45,866 bases of DNA from Verrucomicrobiota bacterium (GTDB taxonomy: Bacteria > Verrucomicrobiota > Verrucomicrobiia > Opitutales > Opitutaceae), in NCBI GenBank assembly GCA_016235555.1, contig JACRKC010000038.1:1-45866 (forward strand). The letters are read 5' to 3'. Position numbers and translations under genes: made by a program. This document shows, one piece after another, positions 1,132 through 45,866 of this stretch (its first letter is position 1; every line of letters starts with the position of its first letter). The notes beneath the pieces are model-generated. The model had not been told where the DNA came from. It saw only the letters and a program-made list of their open reading frames with translations, and did no database searches.

Positions 1132-1990
1132 GGGTGTAACTCAAACTGATGTCAGCGCGAGGAAGGTGCGTGGTGCGAAGCCTGCTGCATGCCACCATGC
1201 CCAACCCGACCACCCCCACCACCCCCGCGACGCTGGCCGCCCGGCTGGCGCGACAGCCGCAGTGATGCGCGCAGGTCGAGCGCCTGCTCGACGAAGTCGA
1301 AAACTGCTCCGGCGAGTTGACCAACGCCGACGCCGCCGAGGACGGCCTCGTCGAGCGGGTGCGCACGCTGGGGCGCACCGCCCTCCAACAGTGGGCCGAG
1401 CACCAAGTGCAAGGCCTCAGCCGCCCGGCTGGCAGCCGCGCGGCGGGTGAAAAAAACTCCAGTGGCTGACCACCTTCGGCCAGGCCGCCGTGCTCGTGCC
1501 GCCATGGCGGCACGGCTCGCGGGTGCGCCGCCCCTTTTGTGCGGCGGCCGGCGTGTCGCCGCGCAGCGTGTCCCGCCGGGCGCAGCGCGCGCTCACCGAT
1601 TCCGGGGCGGATGCGCCGGCGCGCCGCGGCGAAGTTCACCGCGACCGCCTCTTGCGCGGCGAGCACGCCGCGCTCCAGGCCGAGTGGGCCGCGCGCGTGG
1701 AGCCGCCCGAAGTCCCCGACGAGGCGGCGCCGGCGCGCGGCCTGCACCGCTATCTGGCCAACCGGCCCGAGCAACTGGACTATCCGAGTGCCGTCGCGGC
1801 CGGCCTGCCCGTCGGTTCCGGCCTCATCGAAAGCGGCCACCGCCATGTGCTGCAAGCGCGGCTCAAACGCGCCGCCGCGTGGTGGACCGACGCCAACCGG
1901 CACGCGATGGTCCAACTGCGTGTCTGCCGCGCCAACGCCGCTTGGGCCGCCGCGTGGCCAAACTGACTGACATCAGTTCGAGTCCCGCCC
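1132..1990 (+). mobile_element. ISKra4-family insertion sequence remnant with both inverted repeats
   Basis: A 24-bp terminal repeat at 1132-1155 (core AACTCAAACTGATGTCAG) is matched in inverted orientation at 1967-1990, 20 of 24 positions identical. The right repeat starts immediately after the transposase stop codon. The enclosed 0.86 kb encodes a broken ISKra4-family transposase with its centre deleted. I could not find a clean target-site duplication (flanks CGAGACCAC and CGCGCACCA agree only with a gap). The same terminal repeat bounds three short elements elsewhere in this window (14590, 31001, 32658), so this remnant shows which transposase type mobilised them. Confidence 0.75.
1197..1966 (+). 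pseudogene. ISKra4-family transposase, internally deleted and frameshifted
   Basis: The frame from ATG 1197 meets a TGA at 1263-1265, but the following codons still read as the family's N-terminal helical region (VERLLDEVENCSGELTNAD, then a Leu/Gln-rich stretch). The second part lies in another frame from about 1447 (WLTTFGQAAVLVPP, then PFCAAAGVSPRSVS), and the C-terminus reads AAGLPVGSGLIESGHRHVLQ followed by RLKRAAAWWTDANRHAM, the typical end of ISKra4 transposases. Around 200 residues of the central catalytic region are missing between about 1610 and 1640. One nonsense codon, one frame change and one large deletion make it inactive. Confidence 0.75.
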
Positions 1991-14526: not shown

Positions 14527-14589
14527 GCGGGCGCCGCGGCGTGATGGCGCCGGTGCGGGCAAAGGGATCGAGGCGTGAAGGGAGGCGCC

Positions 14590-14730
14590 GGGTGCGACAG
14601 GAAGTGAGGTCAGCCAGCTGTAGCGGCGGTCTGCGACCGCCGGCGATGCGCCAAGGGTTCGCGTTCGGCGGTCGCTGACCGCCGCTACAACCAAGGCCTC
14701 GGTTTACTGACCTCATTTCCTGTTACACCC
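14590..14730. mobile_element. ISKra4-type MITE with REP-pair core, copy A
   Basis: 141 bp bounded by 24-bp inverted repeats (inner end AGGTCAG, outer end GGGTG; about 21 of 24 identical). They match the ends of the ISKra4 remnant at 1132. The core at 14620-14688 is a GTAGCGGCGGTC...CCGCTAC palindrome pair. It is flanked on both sides by the identical 9-bp sequence GGAGGCGCC (14581-14589 and 14731-14739), a perfect target-site duplication. It has no coding capacity. Confidence 0.85.
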
Positions 14731-14847
14731 GGAGGCGCCTGCGGGCGGGCGATCTTGTGGCACGGGTCTCCCGACCCGTGAGTTCCGACCATCACAGGTC
14801 AGGAGACCCGTGCCACGCCAAGCCATCGCCTGCAAGCAGGCTCCTAC
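14731..14847. repeat. Palindrome pair (4505 family) interrupted by MITE copy A
   Basis: It ends with CAAGCAGGCTCCTAC and contains the CACGGGTCTCC/GGAGACCCGTG inner pair, so it belongs to the family at 4505. Its left hairpin begins with the target duplication of MITE copy A, showing that the MITE inserted at the edge of this older repeat. Confidence 0.8.
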
Positions 14848-15900: not shown

Positions 15901-16215
15901 GAACTCTTTGTCACCCTATTTCGCGAGACTCAGTAATGCCGGAGAGCCTCGATGCCAACGCCGGGCCGCGCCGGAGCTGCGCACTGGCCGCGGTCTATGC
16001 ATGGACGGGGGACAAGGTTCACGCTCTGGCCGGGCTAGCGCGTCTGCTCCGCATCCCTACGGCTACTATGGCAGCGTCCACGACCTGCGGGTCGATCCCG
16101 CGTTCGCCCCGCTGCGCGTCGATCCGCGCGGTTCGAGGCGCTGCTCAAGGATCCGAAGAATCACGCGCCGTTGTTTTGAGGGCGCTCGCCGCCGAAACGG
16201 TCGGAGCGTAAACGC

Positions 16216-16367
16216 AGGCGCCTGCTTGCAGGCGATTTTGTGGCACGGGGCTCCTGACCCGTGATGACCGGACACGGGTCGGGAGCCCCGTGCCACTTCA
16301 AGGCATCGCCTGCCCGTTCGGCGGGCTCAGGGCCCCGAGCCTGTCGAGGGGCGAGCAGGCTCCTACC
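16216..16367. repeat. Palindrome pair (4505 family) supplying a stop codon
   Basis: The left arm GGCGCCTGCTTGCAGGCGA and right arm GAGCAGGCTCCTACC enclose a GGCACGGGGCTCC/GGAGCCCCGTGCC pair. An extra hairpin element (GGCGGGCTCAGGGCCCCGAG) is inserted near the right arm. On the minus strand the terminal GGTAG provides the TAG stop of the downstream 696-residue protein. Confidence 0.8.
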
Positions 16368-27254: not shown

Positions 27255-27487
27255 GGTGGAGCGCGTGGCCCTCCGGGCGGGTGGTGTGGCCCCGGGCCGC
27301 GGCCAGCCGGACTCGTGCGTGAAGGTGGAGCGCGTTGACCCCAACGCGCTTTTTTTGTGGGAGGGGCTTTACGCCCCGACGAGTCGCGAGGTAAACCCGC
27401 TCCCACCTTCAATCCAAGCGGCTTGGGGGCAGGCCGCTCCACCTCCGGCCGGCAAAAGCGGGCGCGTGGAAGGCGACGCGCTCCACC
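27255..27487. repeat. Composite palindromic repeat
   Basis: Outer arms GGTGGAGCGCGT and GACGCGCTCCACC. Inside lie GGTGGAGCGCGTTGACCC with CAACGCGCT, then GTGGGAGGGGCTTTACGCC with its partner around 27400 (AACCCGCTCCCACC), then a GGCAGGCCGCTCCACC arm. The same modules, in the opposite orientation, make up the right edge of the window (45753 onward). Confidence 0.8.
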
Positions 27488-31000: not shown

Positions 31001-31141
31001 GGGTGTGATTCAAACAGAGGTCAGCGATTTGTAGCGGCGGTCTATGACCGCCGAACGAATCCCCTTGGGGCCACGCCGGCGGTCATAGACCGCCGCTACA
31101 GCCGGGCCATTCGGAAACTGACCTCAGGATGAATTTCACCC
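31001..31141. mobile_element. ISKra4-type MITE with REP-pair core, copy B
   Basis: 141 bp with 24-bp inverted ends (GGGTGTGATTC...AGGTCAG and the mirrored CTGACCTC...TTCACCC; 19 of 24 identical). The core is GTAGCGGCGGTCTATGACC and its mirror GGTCATAGACCGCCGCTAC. The flanks GGCAAGCCC (30992-31000) and GGCAAACCC (31142-31150) match at 8 of 9 bases, an aged target duplication. Confidence 0.85.
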
Positions 31142-31218
31142 GGCAAACCCCGCGTCGCGACGCGCGCCATTGACCGGCCGGCGCCGGCGTGTTGCGCTGC
31201 GGTCACCCCTCCCCCGCC

Positions 31219-32657: not shown

Positions 32658-32798
32658 AGGTGTAACTCAAAGTGAGGTCAGTTTTCGCATGCCTCGGCTG
32701 TAGTGGCGGTCTATGACCGCCGGCGTTGCGCCAAGAGCGTTCGTTCGGCGGTCATAGACCGCCGCTACAAATCACTGACCTCAGTTTGAGTCACACCC
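32658..32798. mobile_element. ISKra4-type MITE with REP-pair core, copy C
   Basis: 141 bp. The left end is GGTGTAACTCAAAGTGAGG and the right end CAGTTTGAGTCACACC, 21 of 24 identical as inverted repeats. The left end is nearly the same as that of the ISKra4 remnant at 1132. The core is GTAGTGGCGGTCTATGACC with its mirror ending CCGCTAC. No clear target duplication (flanks GGCGCCAGT and CGGACCGGT). It lies upstream of the Arg/Gly-rich protein gene. Confidence 0.85.
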
Positions 32799-32964
32799 CG
32801 GACCGGTTGCCCTTGGAATTTACAGTTGCCCCGCGCTGCCGGGCCGGCGACTGTTCCGTCTTCATGCCCGCGTCGAGCGCTTTCCTGCGCTCCGTTGGGC
32901 GACACAAAACCCGGCTGCCTCCCGCCCCCGCGGGCTCGGCGCCATCTCCACAAACAACACCCAC

Positions 32965-43800: not shown

Positions 43801-44209
43801 CGAGGGGCTCGCCCTCCCGCGCGAGGAAGACGAATTCAACCTCACCTTCTACTCGACCAACACCTGTTGGATCGACGTCGACCGGCTGCTCACGCTCTTC
43901 GGCCTCACCCGCGCCGATCTCGGCGACGCCGACCGCACCGCCGCCGCCGTGCGTGCGATGGCCGCCCGCATGCCGACCTACGTCACGCTCAAGGACGTGA
44001 AGAAGCGCTGGGGCCACGGCCAGGAGGACGTGTTCCCCGTGGCGCAATTCGAAAAACTCTGGGGCGACATGACCGGCCTCGCCGAGGCCCGCAACGTCTT
44101 CGCCGCCGTGCCCCGCGCCCGCGGCCAGCAACTGAAGGATCAGGCGCAGCTCGACGGCTGGGCCCGCGACGGCTCGGCGGCCTACATCGATTCGATTTGC
44201 CAGTGGTAG
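40868..44209 (+). CDS. GHMP-kinase/UDPGP-type nucleotidyltransferase fusion
   Basis: 1113 residues. Residues 1-170 are helical and unassigned. Residues ~180-600 resemble the fucokinase branch of GHMP kinases: RMDLTHCGWSDIFFLG (about 184), NRIPKGSRLAVSTNLLGALI (~312, ATP-loop position) and GGSGGGWQDSGGLWPGIK (~365). Residues ~735-1113 resemble eukaryote-type UDP-sugar pyrophosphorylases (VVSYAAGVGSRWTQGAGVVK near 741, VHNIDTLGATLDP near 930). The combination suggests phosphorylation and nucleotidylation of a free sugar, as in FKP, but FKP has the pyrophosphorylase first; here the order is reversed. A palindromic repeat encodes residues ~713-729 between the domains. The TAG stop belongs to a repeat. 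The substrate is unknown; the assignment rests on motifs. Confidence 0.75.
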   Translation: MTLRVTDLIESADAATRDQAIDQWCRGRTVTELLDACAELDAYRRRESNLYKRVRALFFLTAIHRYHLPACADLPRLGRVPYDGFRHLLERRFEEAIAVFAAAQQTAGPSETLSSALAAAHHALAFQTLADQVRRTVRSTRGNAWMFRLGHPGDQPLRARPELLARDHATGAYPLLRERTPVRMDLTHCGWSDIFFLGMDFPEGARVLNISIDLGVHGRDAEPRPPVEAFFRVIDEPVIRLASVDLGATACVSSLDEVFDFARDYLGLLKAAVIAAGVVPPGIERSGASLADLLGAIFGPGRGFELVSNVNRIPKGSRLAVSTNLLGALIGALMRATGQIRTLAGPMEEGERRMVAARAILGEWLGGSGGGWQDSGGLWPGIKLIEGALAQPGDPEHGVSRGRLLPRHTLFGVDRISTAARKKLQDSLVLVHGGMAQNVGPILEMVTEKYLLRGESEWAARRQAVATLDRILALLAAGDIRALGRELTQNFFGPLQTIIPWVSNRYTELLIERTRAAFGEDFWGFWMLGGMSGGGMGFIFAPHRRAEGQTKLAGIMLTTKRELETSLPFAMDPVVYDFAINEHGSVSALLAGAEALLPVEYYQHTVPGFLRREARDLTPRERADLQQFTRAARGTPAFAAALPTLLDHLLPSDGASDRAGRRLDELLAENGFDRTQHEQIRTDLRAGRIGLAMNRLPATAKIEDVPASELFNGRSGFTPDTSGINPDLQKAGEAALRRGEVAVVSYAAGVGSRWTQGAGVVKALHPFAKFAGAHRSFADVHLAKSRRTAAAFGAPVPHMFTTSYLTHAPIERHLRAHHGAAVDRDVFLSPGRSIGLRLVPTVRDLHFAWEETAQQRLDEQKEKMRDSLRAALTNWARTAGEGADYTDNLPGQCLHPVGHWFEVPNLLKNGTLARLLAAQPQLRTLMVHNIDTLGATLDPTLVGWFQQSGAALGWEVIPRRIEDHGGGLARIDGRLRLVEGLALPREEDEFNLTFYSTNTCWIDVDRLLTLFGLTRADLGDADRTAAAVRAMAARMPTYVTLKDVKKRWGHGQEDVFPVAQFEKLWGDMTGLAEARNVFAAVPRARGQQLKDQAQLDGWARDGSAAYIDSICQW
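43007..43052. repeat. Palindrome pair inside the kinase-fusion gene
   Basis: AGGTCGGGCTTTACGCCCGAC followed by GTCGGGGATAAACCCCGACCTAC. It is translated as an interdomain stretch containing GRSGFTPDTSGINPDLQ. Confidence 0.85.
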
Positions 44210-44315
44210 GGACGCCTCTCCGAGGCGTCCGCCCCTCGACATTCCATTCGGAACACTTTTCCTCTTCCCTTTTCCTCTTCCCAACCACGGACGGCTCGGA
44301 GAGCCGTCCCTGCCG
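44205..44315. repeat. REP pair left of the RAYT gene
   Basis: GGTAGGGACGCCTC, TCC, GAGGCGTCC forms the first hairpin; GGACGGCTCGGAGAGCCGTCC followed by CTGCCG is the second, with a CTTTTCC-type spacer between. Its TAG (44207-44209) is the stop codon of the kinase fusion. Confidence 0.9.
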
Positions 44316-44327
44316 ACTCGCTCTCAC

Positions 44328-44765
44328 ATGGTGCTTCCGCAACGTCGCTGGCTTTTCCATTCGGCTCCCAGCTGGGTGCATAGCGCCACGTATTTCATCA
44401 CCATTTGCTGCCAGATTCGTGGCACTGACCAGCTCTGCGCACCAGCCACCTCATCAAAACTCCTGGCTGCTATGTCCCACTACCAAACCGCGCAACGCTG
44501 GCACGTGTTTGTCTGGGTGCTGATGCCGGATCACCTTCACGCCATCGTCTCTCTTCCGACCGAGGAAAGTCTCACGAAAACTGTCGCCGCTTGGAAGCGC
44601 TTTACGGCCCGCGAAGCCGGCATCGCCTGGCAACGCGGTTTCTTCGATCATCGCCTTCGTAGCGACGAGAGCCTTGAGGAAAAGGCCCACTACATCCGGA
44701 TGAATCCCGTTCGCAACGGCCTTGTTGCCCACCCCGCCGACTGGCCGCACATCTGGCCCTGTTAG
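44328..44765 (+). CDS. REP-associated tyrosine transposase (RAYT, Y1_Tnp)
   Basis: 145 residues, typical length. It belongs to the IS200/IS605-type HUH transposases: ATYFITICCQ near the start, the HUH motif H69-L-H71 in MPDHLHAIV, and the catalytic Tyr122 in HYIRMNPVRNGLV. RAYTs bind and cut REP hairpins with a GTAG foot as single strands. The complete set of key residues suggests that it is or recently was active. It is flanked by two copies of a GTAG-footed repeat. ATG 44328 is preceded directly by the left repeat; the promoter is probably inside or before it. Confidence 0.92.
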   Translation: MVLPQRRWLFHSAPSWVHSATYFITICCQIRGTDQLCAPATSSKLLAAMSHYQTAQRWHVFVWVLMPDHLHAIVSLPTEESLTKTVAAWKRFTAREAGIAWQRGFFDHRLRSDESLEEKAHYIRMNPVRNGLVAHPADWPHIWPC

Positions 44766-44774
44766 CAATCCGTC

Positions 44775-44872
44775 GGTAGGGACGCCTCTCCGAGGCGTCC
44801 GCCCCTCGACATTCCATTCGGAACACCTTTCCTCTTCCCAACCACGGACGGCTCGGAGAGCCGTCCCTACCG
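44775..44872. repeat. REP pair right of the RAYT gene
   Basis: Same sequence as the left copy over GGTAGGGACGCCTC...GGAGAGCCGTCCC, ending CTACCG with a perfect CTAC foot. It starts about 10 bp after the RAYT stop. Confidence 0.9.
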
Positions 44873-45734: not shown

Positions 45735-45752
45735 GCAGAACGTTGCCGTCGA

Positions 45753-45866
45753 GGTGGAGCGCGTTGCCCTCAACGCGCTGGTTTGGAGGTGGGAGCGGGT
45801 TTACCCCGCGACTCGTCGGGGCATAAAGCCCCTCCCACAAAAAGCGCGTTGAGGGCAACGCGCTCC
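45753..45866. repeat. Composite palindromic repeat running off the window
   Basis: GGTGGAGCGCGTTGCCCTCAACGCGCT, then GTGGGAGCGGGTTTACCCC with GGGGCATAAAGCCCCTCCCAC, then AGCGCGTTGAGGGCAACGCGCTCC at the right edge. The modules match 27255-27487 in inverted order. Confidence 0.85.

Follow-up and report, generated by a model that had tools for sequence, protein, structure and literature searches.

The 141-bp unit at 14590-14730 of the window (the whole stretch of DNA analysed, 45,866 nucleotides) is very probably a non-autonomous transposon, a MITE, with the ends of ISKra4-group insertion sequences (ISs), a captured REPIN inside and an ISKra4 transposase as its mover. On this proposal the MITE would be bounded by inverted repeats of an ISKra4-group IS, whose DDE transposase is of the Mutator superfamily, and its interior would be a captured REPIN, i.e. 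a pair of REP hairpins of the GTAG type that is tied to RAYT (HUH) transposases. The 24-bp ends would be recognised by the ISKra4 transposase, and insertion with a 9-bp target duplication would follow, often at a fixed 9 + 18 bp from a TTG resembling a -35 promoter element of the sigma-70 type. In this way the REPIN would be carried as cargo by a transposase from a different class. Shared ends, target duplications, paralogous empty sites, a TTG at fixed distance, REP pairs lacking IS ends and the ends of ISKra4 sequences in a sister genus are the evidence at sequence level; from these we infer mobility, the moving enzyme and the direction of capture, and likewise any present-day movement and the TTG belonging to a working promoter.

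Each part is already known; what is new is the combination, with most sampled REP copies being inside the ends of a DDE transposon. In the open-access literature, represented mostly by titles and the openings of abstracts, no report of REP pairs inside ISKra4-type ends was found. The spread of REPs is described as poorly understood in the accessible part of PMC8266576. A RAYT is the usual proposal for it; here a transposase of a different class seems to have multiplied a REP pair, leaving clear target duplications behind.

The three copies and the source of their ends

The window is contig C139 of a draft genome (G000; 8.03 Mb, 140 contigs, 98.6% complete), and the features pertinent to the element and its ends are as follows.

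14590..14730, no strand: MITE copy 1 (141 bp, CAGGAAG-end subfamily, REP-pair core)
14581..14589, no strand: left 9-bp target duplication GGAGGCGCC of copy 1
14731..14739, no strand: right 9-bp target duplication GGAGGCGCC of copy 1
14590..14613, + strand: left terminal inverted repeat of copy 1, 24 bp (end pattern match)
14707..14730, - strand: right terminal inverted repeat of copy 1, 24 bp (end pattern match)
14620..14642, + strand: REP 1 of copy 1, GTAG + 8-bp stem + 3-nt loop
14666..14688, - strand: REP 2 of copy 1, inverted, with ...CTAC at its end on the + strand
31001..31141, no strand: MITE copy 2 (141 bp), flanking 9-mers 8/9
32658..32798, no strand: MITE copy 3 (141 bp), flanking 9-mers 5/9
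1132..1990, + strand: ISKra4-type element of 859 bp with an internal deletion and ends like those of the MITE
1490..1966, + strand: C-terminal part of an ISKra4 transposase within that remnant

What had been predicted from the window alone holds, with one qualification: the two flanks of copy 1 carry GGAGGCGCC with 9/9 identity, the copies at 14590, 31001 and 32658 are each exactly 141 bp, and the centre is a GTAG...CTAC REP pair in which GTAGCGGCGGTC-NNN-GACCGCCG is opposite its own reverse complement. The qualification concerns the match to the remnant at 1132: measured against the left end of the remnant, the two ends of copy 1 have 7 and 5 mismatches in 24 bases, those of the copy at 31001 have 4 and 5, and those of the copy at 32658 have 3 and 2. 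Copy 1 belongs to a separate subfamily, its ends having CAGGAAG where the remnant reads CTCAAAC. The end pattern (24 bases, at most 3 mismatches) has seven matches in the window, namely both ends of 14590, of 32658 and of the remnant and the left end only of 31001, and none in each of 100 shuffles. Copy 2 and reversed copy 3 are identical at 122 of 141 bases; copy 1 is more distant, with 90/141 and 96/141 identities to the other two. Each copy is predicted to form a single long hairpin (DNA z-scores -11.5, -9.7 and -13.1), and the elements are short, with terminal inverted repeats and no room for a transposase gene, as befits a MITE. To the left of copy 1 is an L-rhamnose mutarotase gene (PF05336, 14212-14523) and to its right a gene for a TIR-domain protein (PF13676, 14810-15766).

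Between its two ends, which mismatch each other at 4 of 24 bases, the remnant has a part that aligns with the C-terminal quarter of the ISKra4 transposase (model NF033572, positions 318-422; E = 2e-21; 76.6 bits, below the curated cut-off of 205). A search of the source genome for the ISKra4 family yielded this remnant and two full-length elements, on contigs C44 and C1. Both full-length elements have ends of the form GGGCGCA..., unlike those of the MITE, and 9-bp duplications of 9/9 (C44) and 8/9 (C1); an intact ISKra4 element with MITE-type ends was not found in the 98.6% complete draft. Two more decayed ISKra4-like fragments (L146 and L148, on contig C19) have end-like sequences 6 mismatches off the MITE end.

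Matches to the end pattern occur in four of 56 relatives from the same family and order: eight in G005, seven in G027, and one each in G002 and G024. Six of those in G027, which is of a sister genus, were inspected and are five copies of one left end plus one right end, all cut by contig ends, with left and right never on one contig. Beside the right end is a transposase C-terminus with 58% identity to that of the remnant (106 aa, E = 6e-39). The longest left end continues into a match to the left part of the remnant (65% over 34 aa, E = 5e-12), but its coding sequence was not matched by any full-length ISKra4 protein of the source genome. The original prediction called for an ISKra4 element with these ends; the sister genus provides one, but the source genome itself has only the deleted remnant, its full-length copies ending differently. 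The MITE thus has its ends in common with ISKra4 sequences in both the window remnant and G027. Confidence in the overall reading remains high and is slightly reduced by the G027 left end being tied to the transposase solely via the remnant. REP-free elements with such ends are also present in relatives, one of 143 bp in G005 with a perfect 9-bp duplication and one of 162 bp in G024 with a duplication of 7/9.

Elements of the p-MULT group are described with inverted repeats of 18-39 bp and duplications of 8-9 bp (Guerillot et al. 2014, PMC3942029, in the sections available). Inverted repeats and 8-9 bp duplications are common to the ISKra4 group of p-MULT 4, as presented in those sections, and the MITE; the latter differs in being 141 bp, in lacking a transposase gene and in its REP-pair interior. 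The word MITE does not occur in the PMC3942029 text.

Spread, target duplications and target choice

The whole source genome has 383 matches to the exact REP hairpin pattern (reversed control, 0) and 323 to the end pattern at up to 2 mismatches (control, 0). The 320 kb of its DNA that was fetched holds 111 end-to-end elements, each end being at most 8 mismatches from one of two consensus ends; as those 320 kb are regions picked by whole-element, REP and end searches, the 111 are not a random sample. Among them are 70 of 141 bp and 14 of 140 bp with two type-A REPs. The number of complete elements in the genome is estimated at ~180, i.e. 383 exact REP matches times 48 complete elements per 100 matches listed, on the assumption that the first 100 listed (contigs C1-C34) are representative; copies without an exact REP are not counted in it. 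From these counts the element appears to have spread to more than 100 genomic places. Pattern scans of a genome-contig collection with end plus REP, and with end alone, gave no matches, the source genome and very near records possibly being absent from that collection. The MITEs Nezha, RUP and NEMIS, as reviewed in the relevant part of Di Nocera et al. 2013 (PMC3733652), are also short and non-coding with inverted ends; a REP pair is not part of their description there.

Duplication of 8-9 bp of target is expected of a MITE of the ISKra4 group. Among the 110 elements with both flanks, the flanking 9-mers are perfect in 38, agree at 8/9 in 24 and at 7/9 or fewer in 48, so that 62 of the 110 have a duplication of at least 8/9, as against 0.09% with swapped flanks (0.01% perfect, 0.08% 8/9). 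A length of nine stands out, any other length from 4 to 13 giving at most 5 perfect cases in 110. The 9-mers match at six positions or fewer in 45 of the 110. For empty sites, the joined flanks of 57 well-duplicated copies were compared with the 320 kb, within which most had no paralogous partner. The joined C19:14247 site aligns to 45751-45866 of the window (90.5%) and to 27323-27445 (86%), both partners being uninterrupted with one 9-mer. Similar uninterrupted paralogous alignments with a single 9-mer were obtained for C125:24737, C54:41125 and C2:17302, and the insertion reading of the original prediction came through the empty-site comparison at all of these. Such paralogous sites support insertion. 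For copy 1 itself the partner is the following.

16206..16296, no strand: paralogous repeat that looks like an unoccupied target of copy 1 (weak, with a short left side)

The alignment of its joined site there, at 78.7%, is weaker since only ~17 bases are left of the junction. Separately, in four elements (C60:3114, C35:71106, C34:39549 and C25:46960) one flank, on the CACCGTAAC side, is common over 30 bases and the other is not, and with this one-sided sharing they may sit in, or belong to, a larger repeat.

Three copies are hybrids of the two end subfamilies (C25:11121, C26:117004 and C46:93506), and in these the flanking 9-mers have no more than 1, 3 and 5 of 9 bases in common, which fits exchange between copies via the shared REP core; recombination is likely for these three. 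It is, however, highly improbable that the family as a whole spread through recombination between repeats rather than by transposition, given the duplications in 62 of 110 copies and the empty paralogous sites of several.

A TTG is found at nearly the same outward distance from each of the three window copies.

14560..14562, - strand: -35-like TTG target motif, outward offset 27 relative to the left end of copy 1
31170..31172, + strand: TTG ahead of a sulfatase gene (PF00884), outward offset 28 relative to copy 2
32826..32828, + strand: TTG, outward offset 27 relative to copy 3

Among the sampled elements, 46 of 198 non-redundant flanks have TTG at offset 27 (the 9-bp duplication plus 18), the mean for other offsets being 2.37. 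A motif near GGCGCATCTCACTTTCTTGCA recurs just past the duplication (at C41:68698, C38:175879, C125:24737, C53:64315, C12:15101 and others); it has a TTG of its own and is possibly part of another repeat family used as target. The 18 flanks with this motif hold 5 of the 46 cases, and the TTG peak is not due only to the neighbouring repeat, since 41 of 180 motif-free flanks keep TTG at 27 (mean elsewhere, 2.17). At offsets 26-29 the two sides of the element are used about equally (long-arm 32 and short-arm 36 of 71 flanks, 3 being unassigned). TTG is at exactly 27 in 3 of 15 flanks in relatives (G005 L151, G027 L203 and G024 L194); none of the six flanks belonging to the remnant and both full-length ISKra4 copies has it there.

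In the portions of PMC3942029 available, several members of the ISKra4 group insert upstream of sigma-A promoters, on both sides if their ends are nearly identical, at a published distance of 13-17 bp, compared with 18 bp past the duplication (27 from the end) for the MITE. By this analogy the target choice seems akin to that published for the group, and the family is a large natural insertion set for the promoter-targeting rule of ISKra4-type elements. For the targeting step only, the chance that the TTG is the transposase's own target recognition, with no promoter link, is appreciable, though below even. In its favour is the weakness of the -10 signal (TAnnnT at a spacing of 16-18 in 2 of 46 TTG flanks), together with the lack of any identified gene reading leftwards beside the TTG of copy 1. 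An ORF reads away from the element in 27 of 34 TTG flanks versus 53 of 85 others (Fisher P = 0.086), which as a sign of promoters is only suggestive, and ORF length beside the TTG shows no clear difference (19/34 versus 37/70). Set against this is the upstream-of-promoter insertion published for the group. The motif is accordingly termed -35-like here, and a promoter is not claimed.

The REP pair as cargo

If the REP pair was captured, REP pairs free of the ends are of obvious relevance. The first 100 REP matches listed for the source genome form 65 clusters, and the 63 that could be judged comprise 48 complete elements, 6 that are one-ended and 9 without ends, the last being 7 REP pairs and 2 single REPs. 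(The script gave 4 one-ended and 11 end-free; C1:80054 and C11:40743 were moved to one-ended on reading the sequences.) One relative, G028, has 14 exact REP matches, with variable spacers in the pairs, and no match to the end pattern; the exact REP pattern was not found in the other 55 relatives. REPs and ends occur together in 1 of the 57 genomes searched, G000, and on that distribution the pair and the ends were probably joined in the lineage of this genome. Capture, as originally predicted, is favoured by the end-free pairs in G000 and G028 and by the elements of G005 and G024 that have such ends but no REP.

The interior has two inverted GTAG-tagged hairpins, GTAG being kept in 158 of 170 REPs, and is dispersed without IS ends in 9 of the 63 clusters as well as in G028. 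It shares with the REPINs of RAYT systems, as set out in the accessible part of Bertels and Rainey 2011 (PMC3116915), the arrangement of two REP hairpins, inverted and a short spacer apart. Unlike those REPINs, most sampled copies are within IS ends and have 9-bp duplications, and a cognate RAYT was not found. The source genome has ten matches to the Y1 transposase family (PF01797), and GTAG-tagged hairpins of other families are present at 7 of these 10 RAYT-type loci, as inverted pairs at five (L066, L068, L070, L071 and L073). The element's own REP, the GGCGGTC hairpin, is at none of the 25 RAYT-type loci inspected, which are all 10 in the source genome and 15 of 17 in G028, G005 and G027, and membership in a complete REP/RAYT system is thus not claimed. 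One Y1 family member is in the window, a gene for a REP-associated tyrosine transposase (NF047646) at 44328-44765, and the arrangement over 44205-44872, with this gene between REP hairpins of another family (GTAGGGACGCC...), is REPtron-like.

The lack of a cognate RAYT at the loci inspected would sit well with palindromes unrelated to REPs, i.e. an ordinary MITE hairpin that starts with GTAG by chance. Yet GTAG hairpin pairs with variable spacers are found free of the ends in G000 and G028, and similarly built GTAG hairpins flank RAYT-type genes of G000, so that a chance resemblance is improbable. Slightly less improbable, but still unlikely, is that a RAYT inserted REP pairs repeatedly into MITEs that already existed, the union arising many times and not once per core. 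Apart from the end-free pairs in G000, what could suggest this is a second REP family within the same ends: elements of 189-195 bp have the different pair GTAGCGGCGGGC-N6-GCCCGCCG, with perfect duplications at C34:55906, C8:26351, C47:49316 and C69:6965. (Exact matches to this second REP number 47 in G000 and 0 in 56 relatives.) However, in the 85 copies with the A core the pair is at one position, every copy having a 23-base spacer and arms of 17-18 and 5-7 bases, a uniformity that is partly given by the 140-142 bp length filter, sizes which account for 85 of the 111 elements. Nor was a RAYT-type gene seen beside the REP at the 25 loci. A captured REPIN moved as part of the MITE is the reading retained.

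The nearest precedent found is that of GTAG-15 dimers in the long palindromes of Anabaena variabilis (PMC3733652), where REP dimers are likewise regularly placed within a larger inverted repeat and where palindromes free of REPs were not found. Those palindromes are treated as targets, and the section concerned (section 7) names no IS ends, duplications or transposase.

Stem conservation and rearranged forms

Conservation of the REP stems exceeds that of the element's ends about fivefold. For 21 copies with CAGGAAG ends (19 obtained via whole-element similarity and two via the REP pattern), minor bases make up on average 0.7% of the stems, 7.2% of the ends, 9.0% of the left arm and 11.9% of the loops. 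A bias from searching was controlled for with elements found through an exact end, for which 60 of the 100 matches listed (of 152; contigs C1-C50) were used; 56 of these 60 fall in 47 elements, 29 of them 141 bp. In those 29 the stems are off consensus at 14 of 928 positions (1.5%), whereas the second end deviates at 7.9% and the outermost 9 bases of the two ends at 8.0%. An artefact of REP-pattern searching is thereby rejected, the conservation persisting in the end-found copies.

Change in the stems is also slower than in the duplicated target DNA, at 1.5% in the end-found copies and 1.0% (27 of 2720) in the 85 copies, which are partly REP-chosen, versus 2.6% per site and copy in the duplications (30 mismatches in 65 elements). 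Among 1360 stem pairs there are no compensatory double changes, which points to the sequence, and not pairing alone, being conserved, and makes hairpin-guided repair unlikely as the only cause. TnpA-REP enzymes use the GTAG tag and the hairpin, according to the available part of PMC8266576. Since the stems are better conserved than ends that the transposase should need, another factor may act on them, and the many duplicated copies make the question of such a factor testable. Tentatively, and with odds somewhat against it, the REP pair may have moved to a new carrier: lacking a recognisable RAYT, it would have become cargo of an unrelated DDE transposase, a sequence-specific factor, either a host protein or a trans-acting RAYT, would still keep its stems intact, and this two-part element would set its RAYT-type hairpins at a fixed distance from promoters.

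Loss and reversal of parts of the core are evident too. Two elements of 99 bp have a single hairpin and perfect duplications, and would fit a 42-bp deletion between the hairpins; single-hairpin deletion forms of REPINs are mentioned in the accessible part of PMC3116915. In the 85 A-core copies (140-142 bp) the 23-base spacer has one direction in 45 with CTCAAAC ends and the opposite one in 11 with such ends, while all 27 with CAGGAAG ends have the opposite direction; the remaining two are hybrids. Seven of the 85 spacers fit neither direction well, and without them the counts are 41, 11 and 25, with one hybrid. The distribution suggests more than one inversion of the segment between the hairpins.
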